43,244 nucleotides of DNA from Candidatus Bathyarchaeota archaeon (GTDB lineage Archaea; Thermoproteota; Bathyarchaeia; 40CM-2-53-6): the NCBI GenBank assembly GCA_005882895.1, contig VBBD01000014.1:1-43244 (forward strand). Reading direction: 5' to 3'. Position 1 is the first letter of the stretch. Each line of letters begins with the position of its first letter. Shown here one piece after another: positions 22,041 through 35,889 of the stretch. Position numbers and translations under genes: made by a program. The notes under the pieces are model-generated. The model saw only the letters and a program-made list of their open reading frames with translations. It made no database searches and was not told where the DNA came from.

Positions 22041-22250
22041 AACTCGCTCATTATCAGCTCCGATTCAAGATCCGAACACGCACATCCAGAACAAGGGCTT
22101 TTCCACGCTGGAAACGTGGATAATCCTCGGCCGATCCAAGCCCGGACCCAGCCCTGATCAGCCCATCTCGCCTATTATCAGTGCCAGATGGCGAACGATT
22201 CTAGAAAGGGGGGTCTTAGTGACTGCGTCTCGCGTCGCATGTCTGGGAGC
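22041..22250 (+). repeat. Dispersed repeat B, copy 4
   Basis: It begins near ACTCGCTCATTATCAGCTCC and ends with the diverged core CGCCTATTATCAGTGCCAG, a G6 run, TCTTAGTGACTGCG and GCGTCGCAT. It includes TCCACGCTGG / CCACG...CGTGG at 22102-22120. It fills most of the gap 21913-22381. Confidence 0.75.
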
Positions 22251-26666: not shown

Positions 26667-27784
26667 TTACCTCGTCTCTAACCTCTGCATCTGTGCCAGG
26701 GGTTCGGGGTGCTTATCGAAATACTCTCTTACTCCTCTAAGGAGGTCGGCTAGTATTCTTGCCATGTTGGCTTTGAGATCTTGTGGGTGGATCTCTCCGG
26801 TCTTGTAAGCTTCTTCGAGTTCTTTGTAGGTGGAGAATTTCAGATCTCCTCCGTATTTCTGGTCCCTATCCAATGTGACAGGATTGTTTGCCCGGAAGGC
26901 CAGGAGGCGGTAGTATTCGATTACCGGGTTTTCCTCGACTATTTTGGGTGGGCAGTATGCTTTGCGCAGTTTGTCCTCAATGATTTCAGGGGAGTCGTGG
27001 AGTAATATCGTGTTTTCAGGTTTGCTCTTCGACATCTTAGCCGCAATCACACTGCTCAGTTTAGGATCCTCATCGTAGCTTCCCTTGTCGGATCTCTGTA
27101 TGCCAGCCAGGCCCATTAGCATAGGGGTGTGAAGTGCAACAGGTTTTTCCCATCGGAGCTTGTCGCCGGCCTCTCGTGCTAGTACGTGTGCTTTTCTCTG
27201 GTCTATTCCTGCACATGCTACGTCTAGGTTCATTTCGAATATGTCGGCGGCTTGCATGCACGGATAGAATAGGCTGGCTGTTTCGACGTCTTGGGTTTTC
27301 ATGTCGCGGCCCATGATGGGCAGTGATCGCATCGCCCGTTGGGCTGTGGTAGTTTTGGCGATTCTGATGACTCTTTCCCAGTAGTTGGGTTTGCTGGCGA
27401 GTTCTGAGGCCCAAACGTATTCGACCTTATCCTCTGTGAGTCCAAGTGCCGTGAAGCAGTGTTTGAAGTATTCACCCGCTGTTTCGATCTTTTCCATGTC
27501 GCCGCCATACTTGTTGTTGATCATGCTGTGCCAGTCTGCGAGGAATATGATGAAGTGGAATCCTGCTTGGACCATGTCTTTGATTTTCGCACCGCAGACG
27601 AGTCCTGTGCCGATATGCATCATTCCAGGCAGCCGTGCTAGCTAGGCTGCTTTCCGGAGCATTCGAAGCCCCAGTACGCGCGAGGCTTCTTCTTCTGTTC
27701 TAGGACGCGTTGCAGTTCTGCGGGCTGGATGATCTCTACAGTTCCCTTTGTTACTAGTTCGAGGCGTTGCTCCTGGTTCATCAT
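26667..27784 (-). CDS. tyrS: Tyrosyl-tRNA synthetase, interrupted by a 29-nt insertion
   Basis: Exon-like part 1 runs from ATG 27784 (GGAGGAC just upstream) to about 27653: MMNQEQRLELV ... KPRAYWGFECSG. Part 2 runs from 27623 to 26667: MMHIGTGLVCGAKIKDMV, FLADWHS, the specificity region YPCMQAADIFEMNLDVACAG, and the KMSKS loop AAKMSKSKPENT. Between them, 29 nt break the frame and add an in-frame TAG. Joining the parts gives 362 aa, the usual archaeal TyrRS length, and the seamless motif GFECSGMMHIGTG. The enzyme charges tRNA-Tyr. An essential, otherwise perfect gene argues against decay. Starting at ATG 27623 would delete most of the ATP-binding fold. The TOPRIM gene follows by 9 nt. Confidence 0.85.
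27624..27652 (-). other. 29-nt intervening sequence in tyrS (candidate archaeal mRNA intron)
   Basis: In the coding sense it reads AAGCAGCCTAGCTAG, then CACGGCTGCCTGGA. It contains the 6-bp hairpin GCAGCC/GGCTGC with a 10-nt loop and a TAG in the upstream frame. Its ends share GGAA with the flanks, so the exact borders can shift by up to 4 nt. Upstream AUGC pairs with downstream GCAU, and UCC pairs with GGA. This gives a helix-bulge-helix-bulge-helix layout that places both joining points in bulges, though bulge sizes differ from the strict 3-4-3 form. Alternatives are translational bypass (GGA to GGA) or an assembly artefact. Confidence 0.6.
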
Positions 27785-28992: not shown

Positions 28993-29718
28993 CTATCGCG
29001 CGCTTCTTCTCTTTGCCCTTCCGGTCTGGCGTGCTGCAATGTTCCCAACTTTCCGACCTGGTGAAGTCCAGCGTCCCACTGTTGTAGGTTTGCCCGCGTG
29101 CTTGTGTCTTCCCCCACCGTGAGGATGGGACGCCGCGATCATTGCCTGTCCCTTAACAACAGGCCATTTTCGTCCCCTTGCTCGCTGCAAGAACCAGCGC
29201 GGCCCTGCCTTCATGAAGGGCTTCTCAGTTCGCCCAGCACCGGCCACGACACCTATCATTGCTCGACAATTATCGTTCACATGAATCGTCTTACCCGAGG
29301 GCATGCGCAGCTCCGTGCCAATCGGAGTATGCGAGACAACTGTAGCAAATGAGCCGGATGAACGGGCCATCGTTCCACCATCACCGTGTCTTAGTTCGAT
29401 ATTGCATATCATGGTCCCTTCAGGCATTTTTCCAAGGGTTTTGATGTTACCGATTTCGGCGGGGACTTCCGATCCGAAGAGGAGCTTTTGTCCGACTGCA
29501 ATTCCTTCTGGAGCTGGGATGTAGATTTCTCCCGCTCCCTCCACCTTCAATAATGCTAGGGGTGCTCCCCGAGCCATCTCATGCAAGAGATCCTTGACAT
29601 AGCCCGAAGAGTGCCCGTCCACGCTGTTGTATCCGACCGAGTGGATTCTCCGGTGCGTTGGCGCTTTGAATATGAAATAGCCACGACCACGCCTCTGAAC
29701 GAGAATATTCTTACCCAT
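28993..29718 (-). CDS. rpl2: 50S ribosomal protein uL2
   Basis: This 241-aa protein starts MGKNILVQRRGRGYFIF and contains the peptidyl-transferase-proximal motif MIAASHPHGGGRHKHAG, with the conserved His before a Gly-rich stretch. The GNIAARQTGRAKRR tail is typical of archaeal uL2. It binds 23S rRNA and supports subunit joining. It lies 11 bp after rpl23 in the ribosomal operon. Confidence 0.97.
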   Translation of the reverse strand: MGKNILVQRRGRGYFIFKAPTHRRIHSVGYNSVDGHSSGYVKDLLHEMARGAPLALLKVEGAGEIYIPAPEGIAVGQKLLFGSEVPAEIGNIKTLGKMPEGTMICNIELRHGDGGTMARSSGSFATVVSHTPIGTELRMPSGKTIHVNDNCRAMIGVVAGAGRTEKPFMKAGPRWFLQRARGRKWPVVKGQAMIAASHPHGGGRHKHAGKPTTVGRWTSPGRKVGNIAARQTGRAKRRSAR

Positions 29719-33835: not shown

Positions 33836-35323
33836 TCACCCTTTAGCAACCCCTATGGGAGTCATCCGCACAACCTTTTGGCCGATTCCCAACTGGTGAC
33901 TGACCTCGACGACCCTGTCGACATCCTTGTATGCGCCCGGAGCTTCTTCGGCCAACACCTCCATGCTGGCAGCCCGAATAACTATGCCCTGACTCTCCAG
34001 ACTCTTCTTGAGGTCTCCTCCAAACCACTTGCGTTTAGCACCGGATCGGCTCATGAATCGGCCTGCTCCGTGTGCAGTTGTTCCGAAGCTTAGTTCCATT
34101 GCTCTGGGAGTTCCAATTAGGACCCAGCTGCTCGTACCCATGCTTCCTGGAATCAGAACTGGCTGTCCTACATCTCTGTACTCCACCGGAATATCGTGGT
34201 GGCCGGGTGGAAATGAGCGAGTTGCGCCTTTCCGATGAACAGTTACCTTCCTTGTTTCCCCGTCAATAGCGTGGGATTCGACTTTTGCTACGTTGTGGGC
34301 GACGTCGTAGACGATCTTCATGTCGAGAGAATCGGCCGGCCGCTGGAACACTTTCGAGAATGCTTCTCTCGCCCAGTGGGTTATCATTTGCCGGTTGACA
34401 AAGGCGAAGTTGCAGGCGGCCGACATTGCAGGGATGTAGTCCTCAGCCTCCGGACTTTTGCTCGGACAAGCTGCCAGTTCCCGGTCAGGGAGCTTGATGT
34501 TGTACTTGTTGATCGCGCGCTCCATTACGCGCAGATAGTCACTGCACGTCTGGTGACCGTACCCTCTGCTCCCAGTGTGGATCAAAACTAGAATCTGCCC
34601 TTCTTTATGGATGCCGAGGCGTTCTGCGACGCGCTTATCGAAGATCTTGTCTGCTCGCTCAATCTCGATGAAATGGTTTCCGCTGCCTAGGCTGCCAAGT
34701 TGCGGAGCCCCACGGGACTTCGCACTGTTCGAAACCTTGGAAGGGTCAGCAGCTTCCATGCATCCCTCTTCCTCAATCGTCTTCGGGTCTTCCGGCCAGG
34801 CATAGCCATGGTCAACTGCCCAATCCAGCCCATCAGTAACGGCGCGATCCAGTTCTGTGATGCTGAGTTTGACTTGGCCTCGGCTTCCAAGTCCGGAAGG
34901 TATGAAGTTGAAAATAGTATCCACAAGCTTGGGGAGAACTGGACGCACATCTTCCTCGGAGAGGTTCGTCCGGATCAGTCTGACTCCGCAGTTTATGTCG
35001 TAACCTACTCCACCAGGGCTGATCAGTCCCTCGTCATAGTCAGTGGCTGCTACGCCGCCAATCGGAAAGCCGTACCCTTCGTGTCCATCTGGCATGGTGA
35101 TTGCGTATTTGCAAATCCCGTCGAGGTGCGCGACGTTTACGCACTGCTGGATGGTCCGATCGGTTCTCATCTTGGAGAGAAGGTCTTCGTCGGCGTAGAT
35201 TCTCGCAGGGACTTTCATTCCCGACTGGAAGTCTCTTGGGACCTCCCATACGTTAGGCTCAATTTGTGTCAGGGGAATCTGTGTGCTTGAACGGTTGACG
35301 AGATCGGACCCTTGGTGGCTCAT
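33836..35323 (-). CDS. rtcB: RtcB tRNA-splicing ligase
   Basis: About 495 aa from ATG 35323; ATG 35347 adds eight residues. The 2Mn active site is complete: GGVGYDINCGVRLIRT (Cys and Asp), GSLGSGNHFIEIE, HTGSRGYGHQ, KIVYDVAHN and the guanylylated His in GTTAHGAGRFMSR. RtcB joins the 2',3'-cyclic phosphate and 5'-OH ends left by the splicing endonuclease, using GTP. GCTTATAGG at about 35366 is a likely TATA box and favours the downstream ATG. The archease gene lies 105 bp upstream, and an intron-rich tRNA gene is next to that. There is no intein. Confidence 0.96.
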   Translation of the reverse strand: MSHQGSDLVNRSSTQIPLTQIEPNVWEVPRDFQSGMKVPARIYADEDLLSKMRTDRTIQQCVNVAHLDGICKYAITMPDGHEGYGFPIGGVAATDYDEGLISPGGVGYDINCGVRLIRTNLSEEDVRPVLPKLVDTIFNFIPSGLGSRGQVKLSITELDRAVTDGLDWAVDHGYAWPEDPKTIEEEGCMEAADPSKVSNSAKSRGAPQLGSLGSGNHFIEIERADKIFDKRVAERLGIHKEGQILVLIHTGSRGYGHQTCSDYLRVMERAINKYNIKLPDRELAACPSKSPEAEDYIPAMSAACNFAFVNRQMITHWAREAFSKVFQRPADSLDMKIVYDVAHNVAKVESHAIDGETRKVTVHRKGATRSFPPGHHDIPVEYRDVGQPVLIPGSMGTSSWVLIGTPRAMELSFGTTAHGAGRFMSRSGAKRKWFGGDLKKSLESQGIVIRAASMEVLAEEAPGAYKDVDRVVEVSHQLGIGQKVVRMTPIGVAKG

Positions 35324-35451
35324 TGTGTTTCTTCGCTGGGGGTGCATCCTGAATAGCTACCTATAAGCATGGCTGGCACAATAAGGAAAGCAGGACTAGG
35401 TGAGTATTGTGGAAACTCGGACTTCACTCACATATGATATGATATGTTATG

Positions 35452-35889
35452 CTACAGGTCCAGTAGAAATCTGACCGTCACTTTTCCCGGATGCTTTTCT
35501 ATTTCCATCAAGTGATATGTTATTCCTTTTACCTCGACTTTCCCGCTATGTCTTGTGCGATCGTAAAGCTCTCCACTTGCCCTACCCTTGAGCCTAAATT
35601 CGCCTCGAGCTGGGATGATCGATGTTACGGTAAAGCTTCCGAGGGCGAGCTGCTTGACTTCAAACAGAAGTAAGAGCTCTTCAAGATAATTGTAGAGGAG
35701 TTCTTTTTCGTCATGACCAACAGTTTGGATTTCCTCCCTGGTCCTGGGGTGTACGCTCTTAGTGTCCAACATTGTCTCGAATAAGGCTAGACCTGCCTGA
35801 GAGAACGCCTCCTCAAGGGTATCCCCCCAAGCTTCCACCAGGGCGTCTGTTACATGTTCGAGAAAACTGTATCCTCCAGATATTCCCAA
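35452..35889 (-). CDS. Archease, RtcB cofactor
   Basis: This 145-aa protein has the N-terminal YSFLEHVTDALVEAWGDTLEE with the metal-binding Asp, YNYLEELLLLFEVKQL in the middle, and the acidic C-terminal end RFLLDL, all archease marks. Archease speeds GTP-dependent guanylylation of RtcB and lets it turn over. It precedes rtcB on the same strand, a known pairing. It diverges from the tRNA-Ser gene, with a 94-bp gap. Confidence 0.94.
   Translation of the reverse strand: MGISGGYSFLEHVTDALVEAWGDTLEEAFSQAGLALFETMLDTKSVHPRTREEIQTVGHDEKELLYNYLEELLLLFEVKQLALGSFTVTSIIPARGEFRLKGRASGELYDRTRHSGKVEVKGITYHLMEIEKHPGKVTVRFLLDL

Follow-up and report, generated by a model that had tools for sequence, protein, structure and literature searches.

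The tyrosyl-tRNA synthetase (TyrRS) gene of the Candidatus Bathyarchaeota archaeon examined here is split by a 29-nt insert that in all likelihood is a bulge-helix-bulge (BHB) intron of the pre-mRNA, one that would be removed by the tRNA-splicing endonuclease and rejoined by RtcB. An initial annotation of the same DNA had proposed an mRNA intron, and this reading was supported by comparison with relatives, by the BHB fold, by a consistent cut rule and by the splicing machinery that the genome encodes; cutting and joining in the cell are what we infer from these sequences. The gene, tyrS, is very probably a new host for a known kind of intron, which until now had been reported from essentially one archaeal protein gene.

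The interrupted tyrS gene and its relatives

The window, i.e. the whole 43,244-nt stretch of DNA that was analysed, carries tyrS on the minus strand at 27784-26667, and the frame is broken by the insert at 27651-27623. The upstream part reads MMNQEQRLELVTKGTVEIIQPAELQRVLEQKKKPRAYWGFECSG and then leaves the frame. The first frame runs MMNQEQRL...AYWGFECSG and continues through K Q P S to a TAG stop; MMHIGTGLVCG... resumes in the other frame. The gene is made up of three parts:

27652..27784, minus strand: tyrS exon 1, encoding M(M)NQEQRL...AYWGFECSG and ending with the A of the split Met codon; in close relatives the aligned start is the second ATG, 27781-27779
27623..27651, minus strand: tyrS intron (predicted), 29 nt, AGCAGCCTAGCTAGCACGGCTGCCTGGAA; inserts at this site in 33 of the 256 class genomes
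26667..27622, minus strand: tyrS exon 2, (A)TG ATG CAT ATC GGC ... to stop; Pfam tRNA-synt_1b, NCBIfam tyrosine--tRNA ligase

When the 29 nt were taken out, GFECSG was joined to MMHIGTG in a protein of 362 aa from the first ATG (27784), and the reconstruction offered in the initial annotation thus held up on translation. Counted from the second ATG (27781), which is the one aligned in close relatives, the joined TyrRS has 361 aa; this protein matched a solved TyrRS structure over nearly its full length (residues 2-357 of the query; 2cyc chain A, E 1.9e-87). The downstream 318 aa, starting MMHIGTG, were identified as a tyrosine--tRNA ligase by both Pfam and NCBIfam. The predicted joined 30-mer across the junction is TGCTCCGGAATGATGCATATCGGCACAGGA and the predicted joined peptide is GFECSGMMHIGTGLVCGAK. 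GGAA stands at both ends of the insert, as had been remarked earlier, so that in the window sequence alone several registers give one product; the intron ends were set at 27651-27623 because the sequences of relatives point there.

Pairwise divergence of exon 1 (129 nt, 8 close genomes) was 6.0%, 4.7% and 28.5% at codon positions 1, 2 and 3, respectively; by this measure exon 1 is under purifying selection. The genome that contains the window consists of 92 contigs and is 86.6% complete, with 4.02% contamination. The search for a second tyrS that had been suggested at the outset found none in its 1.97 Mb, a figure to be read with that completeness, since another copy could sit in the missing part.

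Inserts at the identical tyrS codon were found in 33 of the 256 Bathyarchaeia genomes searched (34 copies), spanning seven family codes (f1, f2, f4, f5, f9, f21 and f25), and the earlier claim of an insert that breaks the tyrS frame was borne out by this recurrence. The inserts were 19-53 nt long and differed widely in sequence. Among the 30 tabulated copies, insert length modulo 3 was 2, 0 and 1 in 18, 7 and 5 cases, respectively; these mixed lengths mean that precise removal, and not one frameshift, is needed. A frameshift or sequencing error was ruled out by the mixed lengths together with the conservation of the insert.

The same codons were uninterrupted in 62 genomes of the class; the remaining class genomes, chiefly of family f11, matched neither pattern and belong to neither count. 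Seven genomes with a TyrRS 86-90% identical to that of the window carried a 29-nt insert at the same codon, and two genomes with a 65% identical TyrRS carried a 22-nt insert there. There was no tyrS insert in one further Bathyarchaeota genome (L010) or in one Odinarchaeia genome. Twelve tyrS loci were gathered, eleven of which were aligned.

A DNA pattern detected the insert in 28 of the 256 class genomes, with 0 matches to the reversed control pattern. G059 and a further, truncated tyrS copy in G065 came from a looser pattern, which also hit unrelated sequence in some genomes and whose backward control gave matches in five. Four more genomes (G050, G079, G080 and G221) were added by a covariance model, which gave no convincing site outside tyrS in the 256 genomes at E <= 0.01 with stricter filters on. 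Its weak matches in G069 and G223 proved to be other sequence and were dismissed by eye. The second tyrS-like copy of G065 (contig C4:17000-17500) is truncated, and its 19-nt insert still fits a BHB.

Across the phylum, a pattern that assumes the class's own codons matched in 9 of 398 evenly sampled genomes, all in the class; restriction of the tyrS intron to the class has weak evidence from this result. A quick protein tree had 31 rows, of which 21 carried the intron, 9 lacked it and 1 was an outgroup. At least 4 intron changes were needed on it, compared with 8.0 when the labels were shuffled, and the well-supported branches force 2 changes. Either an ancient origin followed by losses or a few gains would fit this tree.

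Predicted bulge-helix-bulge fold and cut site, and the splicing machinery

The inserts share a predicted fold, a BHB with a 4-bp central helix formed between exon and intron, 3-nt bulges and a covarying inner stem. Its elements in the window are as follows:

27654..27657, minus strand: central helix, 5' strand CCGG (exon 1)
27625..27628, minus strand: central helix, 3' strand CUGG (intron 3' end)
27651..27653, minus strand: 5' bulge AAA, predicted cut 27652/27651
27622..27624, minus strand: 3' bulge AAU, predicted cut 27623/27622
27645..27650, minus strand: inner (intron) stem, 5' arm GCAGCC
27629..27634, minus strand: inner (intron) stem, 3' arm GGCUGC
27659..27662, minus strand: outer (exon) helix, 5' arm AUGC
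27615..27618, minus strand: outer (exon) helix, 3' arm GCAU

Two elements described in the initial annotation are present: a 6-bp hairpin, formed by 27650-27645 and 27634-27629, and the exon pairing of AUGC at 27662-27659 to GCAU at 27618-27615. The BHB-like fold of that annotation was likewise supported, except that the central helix is better drawn as CCGG/CUGG (27657-27654 with 27628-27625) than as UCC/GGA; the TAG that it saw in the insert is real but is not conserved among relatives. Conservation of the insert and covariation of its helices, for which relatives were to be inspected, were both seen (33 of 256 genomes).

The named BHB structure comprises 350 cells over 25 distinct inserts, and 96.9% of them were paired, compared with 25-47% when the partners were slid by 1-3 columns. 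The covariation score was 0.485 (0.277 in shuffles, with 0 of 500 as high) and there were 56 double-change cells, compared with 19.1 in shuffles. Pair counting used five measures, two of which were not above the shuffles: pairs with a double change numbered 6 (4.5 in shuffles, at least this many in 85 of 500), and there were 14 further pair types (14.8 in shuffles, at least this many in 490 of 500). RNAalifold, unaided, returned 13 pairs, 12 of which lay within the named structure. Of 27 distinct inserts, 26 combined an inner stem of 4 bp or more with three or four of the four central pairs at the exact register, compared with 2 of 2000 letter-shuffled inserts; one of the 27 has an inner stem of just 3 bp, followed by a mismatch.

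Among the 25 distinct inserts, 5 had an unpaired G.A as the innermost central pair and 2 had A.C as the outermost exon pair; some of the predicted tyrS BHBs are relaxed BHBs. The exon helix also couples silent positions, the third base of GAR with the third base of CAY in the flanking Glu and His codons. With kinship ignored, the association between these bases had a Fisher p of 0.0024 in the 25 intron-bearing sequences versus 0.61 in the 62 intronless ones. Of the BHB elements, the minimum-energy fold of the window sequence contained only the inner hairpin; other pairings displaced the central and outer helices, and the fold was no more stable than shuffles (z -0.48). Single-sequence folding is uninformative as a test of the BHB.

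According to PMC2738675, the predicted cuts in the cbf5 intron fall between the second and third bulge residues. A cut between bulge residues 2 and 3 gave Gly-Met or Gly-Leu in all 34 tyrS copies (30 of the 30 tabulated and 4 more, all 4 with Leu). Registers one to three bases upstream gave Ile or Val in 11 of 30 copies, downstream registers gave a stop, Lys, Gln or Thr in 26 of 30, and every alternative register tried failed in at least 11 of 30. The residue at this site in the 62 intronless sequences was Leu in 42, Met in 10, Phe in 8 and Pro in 2, with no Ile or Val. In a close relative, G013, the last intron base is changed, a change that is silent under the cut rule; the next register upstream would give Leu in this genome, which is also tolerated.

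Two genes of the endonuclease family (PF01974) were found in the window's genome. One was closest to 3p1z chain B (E 1.8e-43), with the alignment running through the conserved His and Lys stretches, and the other was more diverged. The pair is as one would expect for a hetero-oligomeric (alpha-beta)2 enzyme, its subunit roles and assembly being predicted from the two genes; PMC2738675 links the hetero-oligomeric form of the enzyme to relaxed BHBs and to the mRNA intron. The presence of rtcB and archease in the same region, as stated in the initial annotation, was confirmed in the window by PF01139 and PF01951, respectively, about 6-8 kb from tyrS:

33839..35347, minus strand: rtcB, RNA ligase; PF01139, E 1.1e-169
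35455..35889, minus strand: archease; PF01951, E 1.3e-39

Archease serves as a helper of RtcB. The triple-intron tRNA also attributed to this region did not materialise: ARAGORN, run also in its intron mode, gave one tRNA-Gly(TCC) at 22057-22146, and Rfam gave no tRNA. The Gly (TCC) gene at 22057-22146 is the sole tRNA gene found in the window, by tools that may overlook unusual archaeal introns.

In the proposed mechanism, CCGG of exon 1 would pair with CUGG at the 3' end of the intron, with 3-nt bulges flanking this helix on opposite strands, the short intron hairpin on one side of it and the exon-exon helix on the other. A two-gene, (alpha-beta)2-like endonuclease would cut both bulges between residues 2 and 3, and RtcB with archease would then ligate 27652 to 27622 to give an intact TyrRS message.

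Interrupted cbf5 and mtnA genes and known archaeal introns

The cbf5 gene of the window's genome has a 23-nt insert in GTL-D-P (contig C69, ~29175-29200), at the published cbf5 intron site, which follows the first letter of the catalytic Asp codon (PMC2738675). A simple text pattern applied to cbf5 in 31 class genomes found an insert of 17-34 nt in 17 and an intronless gene in 7, with 7 unmatched; in all 17, GGTLDPxVTG was restored when the join was placed at that published site, after the first letter of the Asp codon. The cbf5 intron is described just for Desulfurococcales and Sulfolobales in the available text of PMC2738675; an insert at its site is seen here in 17 Bathyarchaeia genomes.

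In G029 (L132:3326-4337), THC and NAG of a third interrupted gene, mtnA (S-methyl-5-thioribose-1-phosphate isomerase by NCBIfam), are separated by a 25-nt insert. This one clean further case surfaced when all open reading frames (ORFs) of the near-complete G029 were compared with the fetched part of G059. Protein matches to mtnA were split at THC/NAG in 7 of 61 genomes, from three families. The inserts were read in all seven; they were 22-25 nt long, with four of four central pairs and an inner stem of 5-8 bp, and the same cut rule gave the joined THCNAGA in each. The window genome's own mtnA is intact.

When G029 and part of G059 were scanned for a BHB combined with an ORF, 89 candidates were frame-consistent, compared with 92 and 79 in the two wrong-frame controls. 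The mtnA insert was among the 89, and the tyrS insert lay outside the limits of the scan (exon 1 <60 codons). Nor did a second round of homology search, directed at terminal exons, reveal any further clear case. Since the scan gave no excess over its controls, BHB introns of this kind are probably few per genome.

The introns of tyrS, cbf5 and mtnA all interrupt highly conserved motifs. Those interrupted in tyrS and mtnA we take to be catalytic. For cbf5, the interrupted motif is catalytic according to PMC2738675. Such placement, where precise deletion alone is tolerated, may help to explain why the introns persist.

The closest known system is the cbf5 pre-mRNA intron of Crenarchaeota, described as 16 to 44 bp long with a BHB or relaxed BHB at its borders (Yokobori 2009, PMC2738675, citing Watanabe 2002). 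The predicted tyrS intron resembles it, as far as that text goes, in being short, in its BHB borders, in the position of the predicted cut, after the second bulge residue, in the link to a hetero-oligomeric endonuclease, in interrupting a catalytic codon and in being lost in some lineages. It differs in gene and site (just before the HIGH-type motif) and in class, and the tyrS intron is so far known from genome sequence. By location, in a different gene, it is not a homologue of the crenarchaeal cbf5 intron.

Archaeal tRNA introns with a BHB motif (PMC6379350) share the structural plan and presumably the enzymes, as far as the available text describes them; in tyrS, by contrast, the exons are mRNA, so that the exon bases of the BHB also encode protein. 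A known mRNA leader that is cut by the splicing endonuclease is likewise an mRNA substrate, but it is untranslated and no frame is restored. Putative 12-bp introns that arose in an archaeal virus during infection, with splicing not demonstrated (Peng et al., via PMC2738675), are also short inserts in archaeal protein genes.

Archaeal pre-mRNA introns were described as confined to cbf5 in the available text of PMC4810243 (2016), and the usual example of a spliced intron in an archaeal protein-coding gene has, since 2002, been cbf5 (PMC4810243, 2016; PMC7714728, 2020). The portions available of PMC12397907, PMC13149111 and PMC6379350 name no archaeal protein gene besides cbf5. Among the open-licence literature matches listed, represented by titles and the starts of abstracts, with subscription papers and preprints mostly outside and mtnA not covered, there was no report of a tyrS intron or of mRNA introns in Bathyarchaeia.

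If tyrS is a second, broadly conserved case and mtnA a third, archaeal mRNA splicing by the tRNA machinery would be a recurring feature, and gene callers would label such core genes as truncated or frameshifted. With its gains or losses of the insert, its compensatory changes and its exon codons that also serve as structure, this evolutionary series provides a testbed for ideas on intron persistence.

Alternative explanations

Within the BHB-intron reading, removal could be conditional, acting as a switch that ties TyrRS output to tRNA-splicing activity. A removable insert has been kept in an essential-type gene across several families, and cbf5 and mtnA are also interrupted; however, the intron is patchily absent and many relatives manage without it, and such a switch seems doubtful. 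We would give a similarly small chance to the broader proposal that a few mRNA introns are maintained across the class in the core genes tyrS, cbf5 and mtnA, each inside the most conserved motif of its gene, and that splicing by the tRNA endonuclease and RtcB gates the production of TyrRS, Cbf5 and MtnA, so that enzymes of translation and RNA modification would be made in step with tRNA-splicing capacity.

Translational bypassing, in which the ribosome would leave at the GGA before the insert and land on the GGA at its end with the RNA uncut, is very improbable as an account of the insert. Phage T4 gene 60 provides an example of such a bypass, with matched take-off and landing codons, and the tyrS window resembles it in its short gap, its hairpin and the GGA at both borders. 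The window and 13 others of the 27 distinct sequences have GGA at both ends with a hairpin between, and bypassing would not demand a constant insert length. In 13 of the 27 distinct inserts, however, the 3' end is CCAGAAU or similar and the landing GGA is absent, and in 7 of the 30 copies, all with CCAG ends and no GGA landing codon, a stop follows right after the take-off GGA. Moreover, bypassing needs no exon-intron helix, 3-nt bulges or exon-exon covariation, all of which are conserved among the tyrS inserts.

Even less probable is a TyrRS made in two pieces, with exon 1 giving a short peptide and translation restarting at AUGAUG, so that the pieces assemble or the longer one acts alone. 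Exon 2 does open with AUGAUG in the window and in most close relatives, and it holds an ORF of 318 aa. Against this, 11 of the 13 distinct copies with a CCAG end read AAUAAUG, AGUAAUG or UGUAAUG, without the first AUG. Exon 1 encodes the conserved YWGFE.SG, aligned to the solved TyrRS, a stretch that we take to be part of the active site, and TyrRS is a single chain in the intronless relatives. The covarying BHB would also be left unexplained.

An assembly error, contamination or a decaying pseudogene is the least credible explanation, to which the fragmentation, incompleteness and contamination of the genome noted above lend some colour, but it is already contradicted by the same-site inserts in 33 genomes, and is further opposed by the lack of another tyrS in the genome searched, by the compensatory variation in the insert and by the change of 4.7-6.0% at codon positions 1 and 2 of exon 1 versus 28.5% at position 3.
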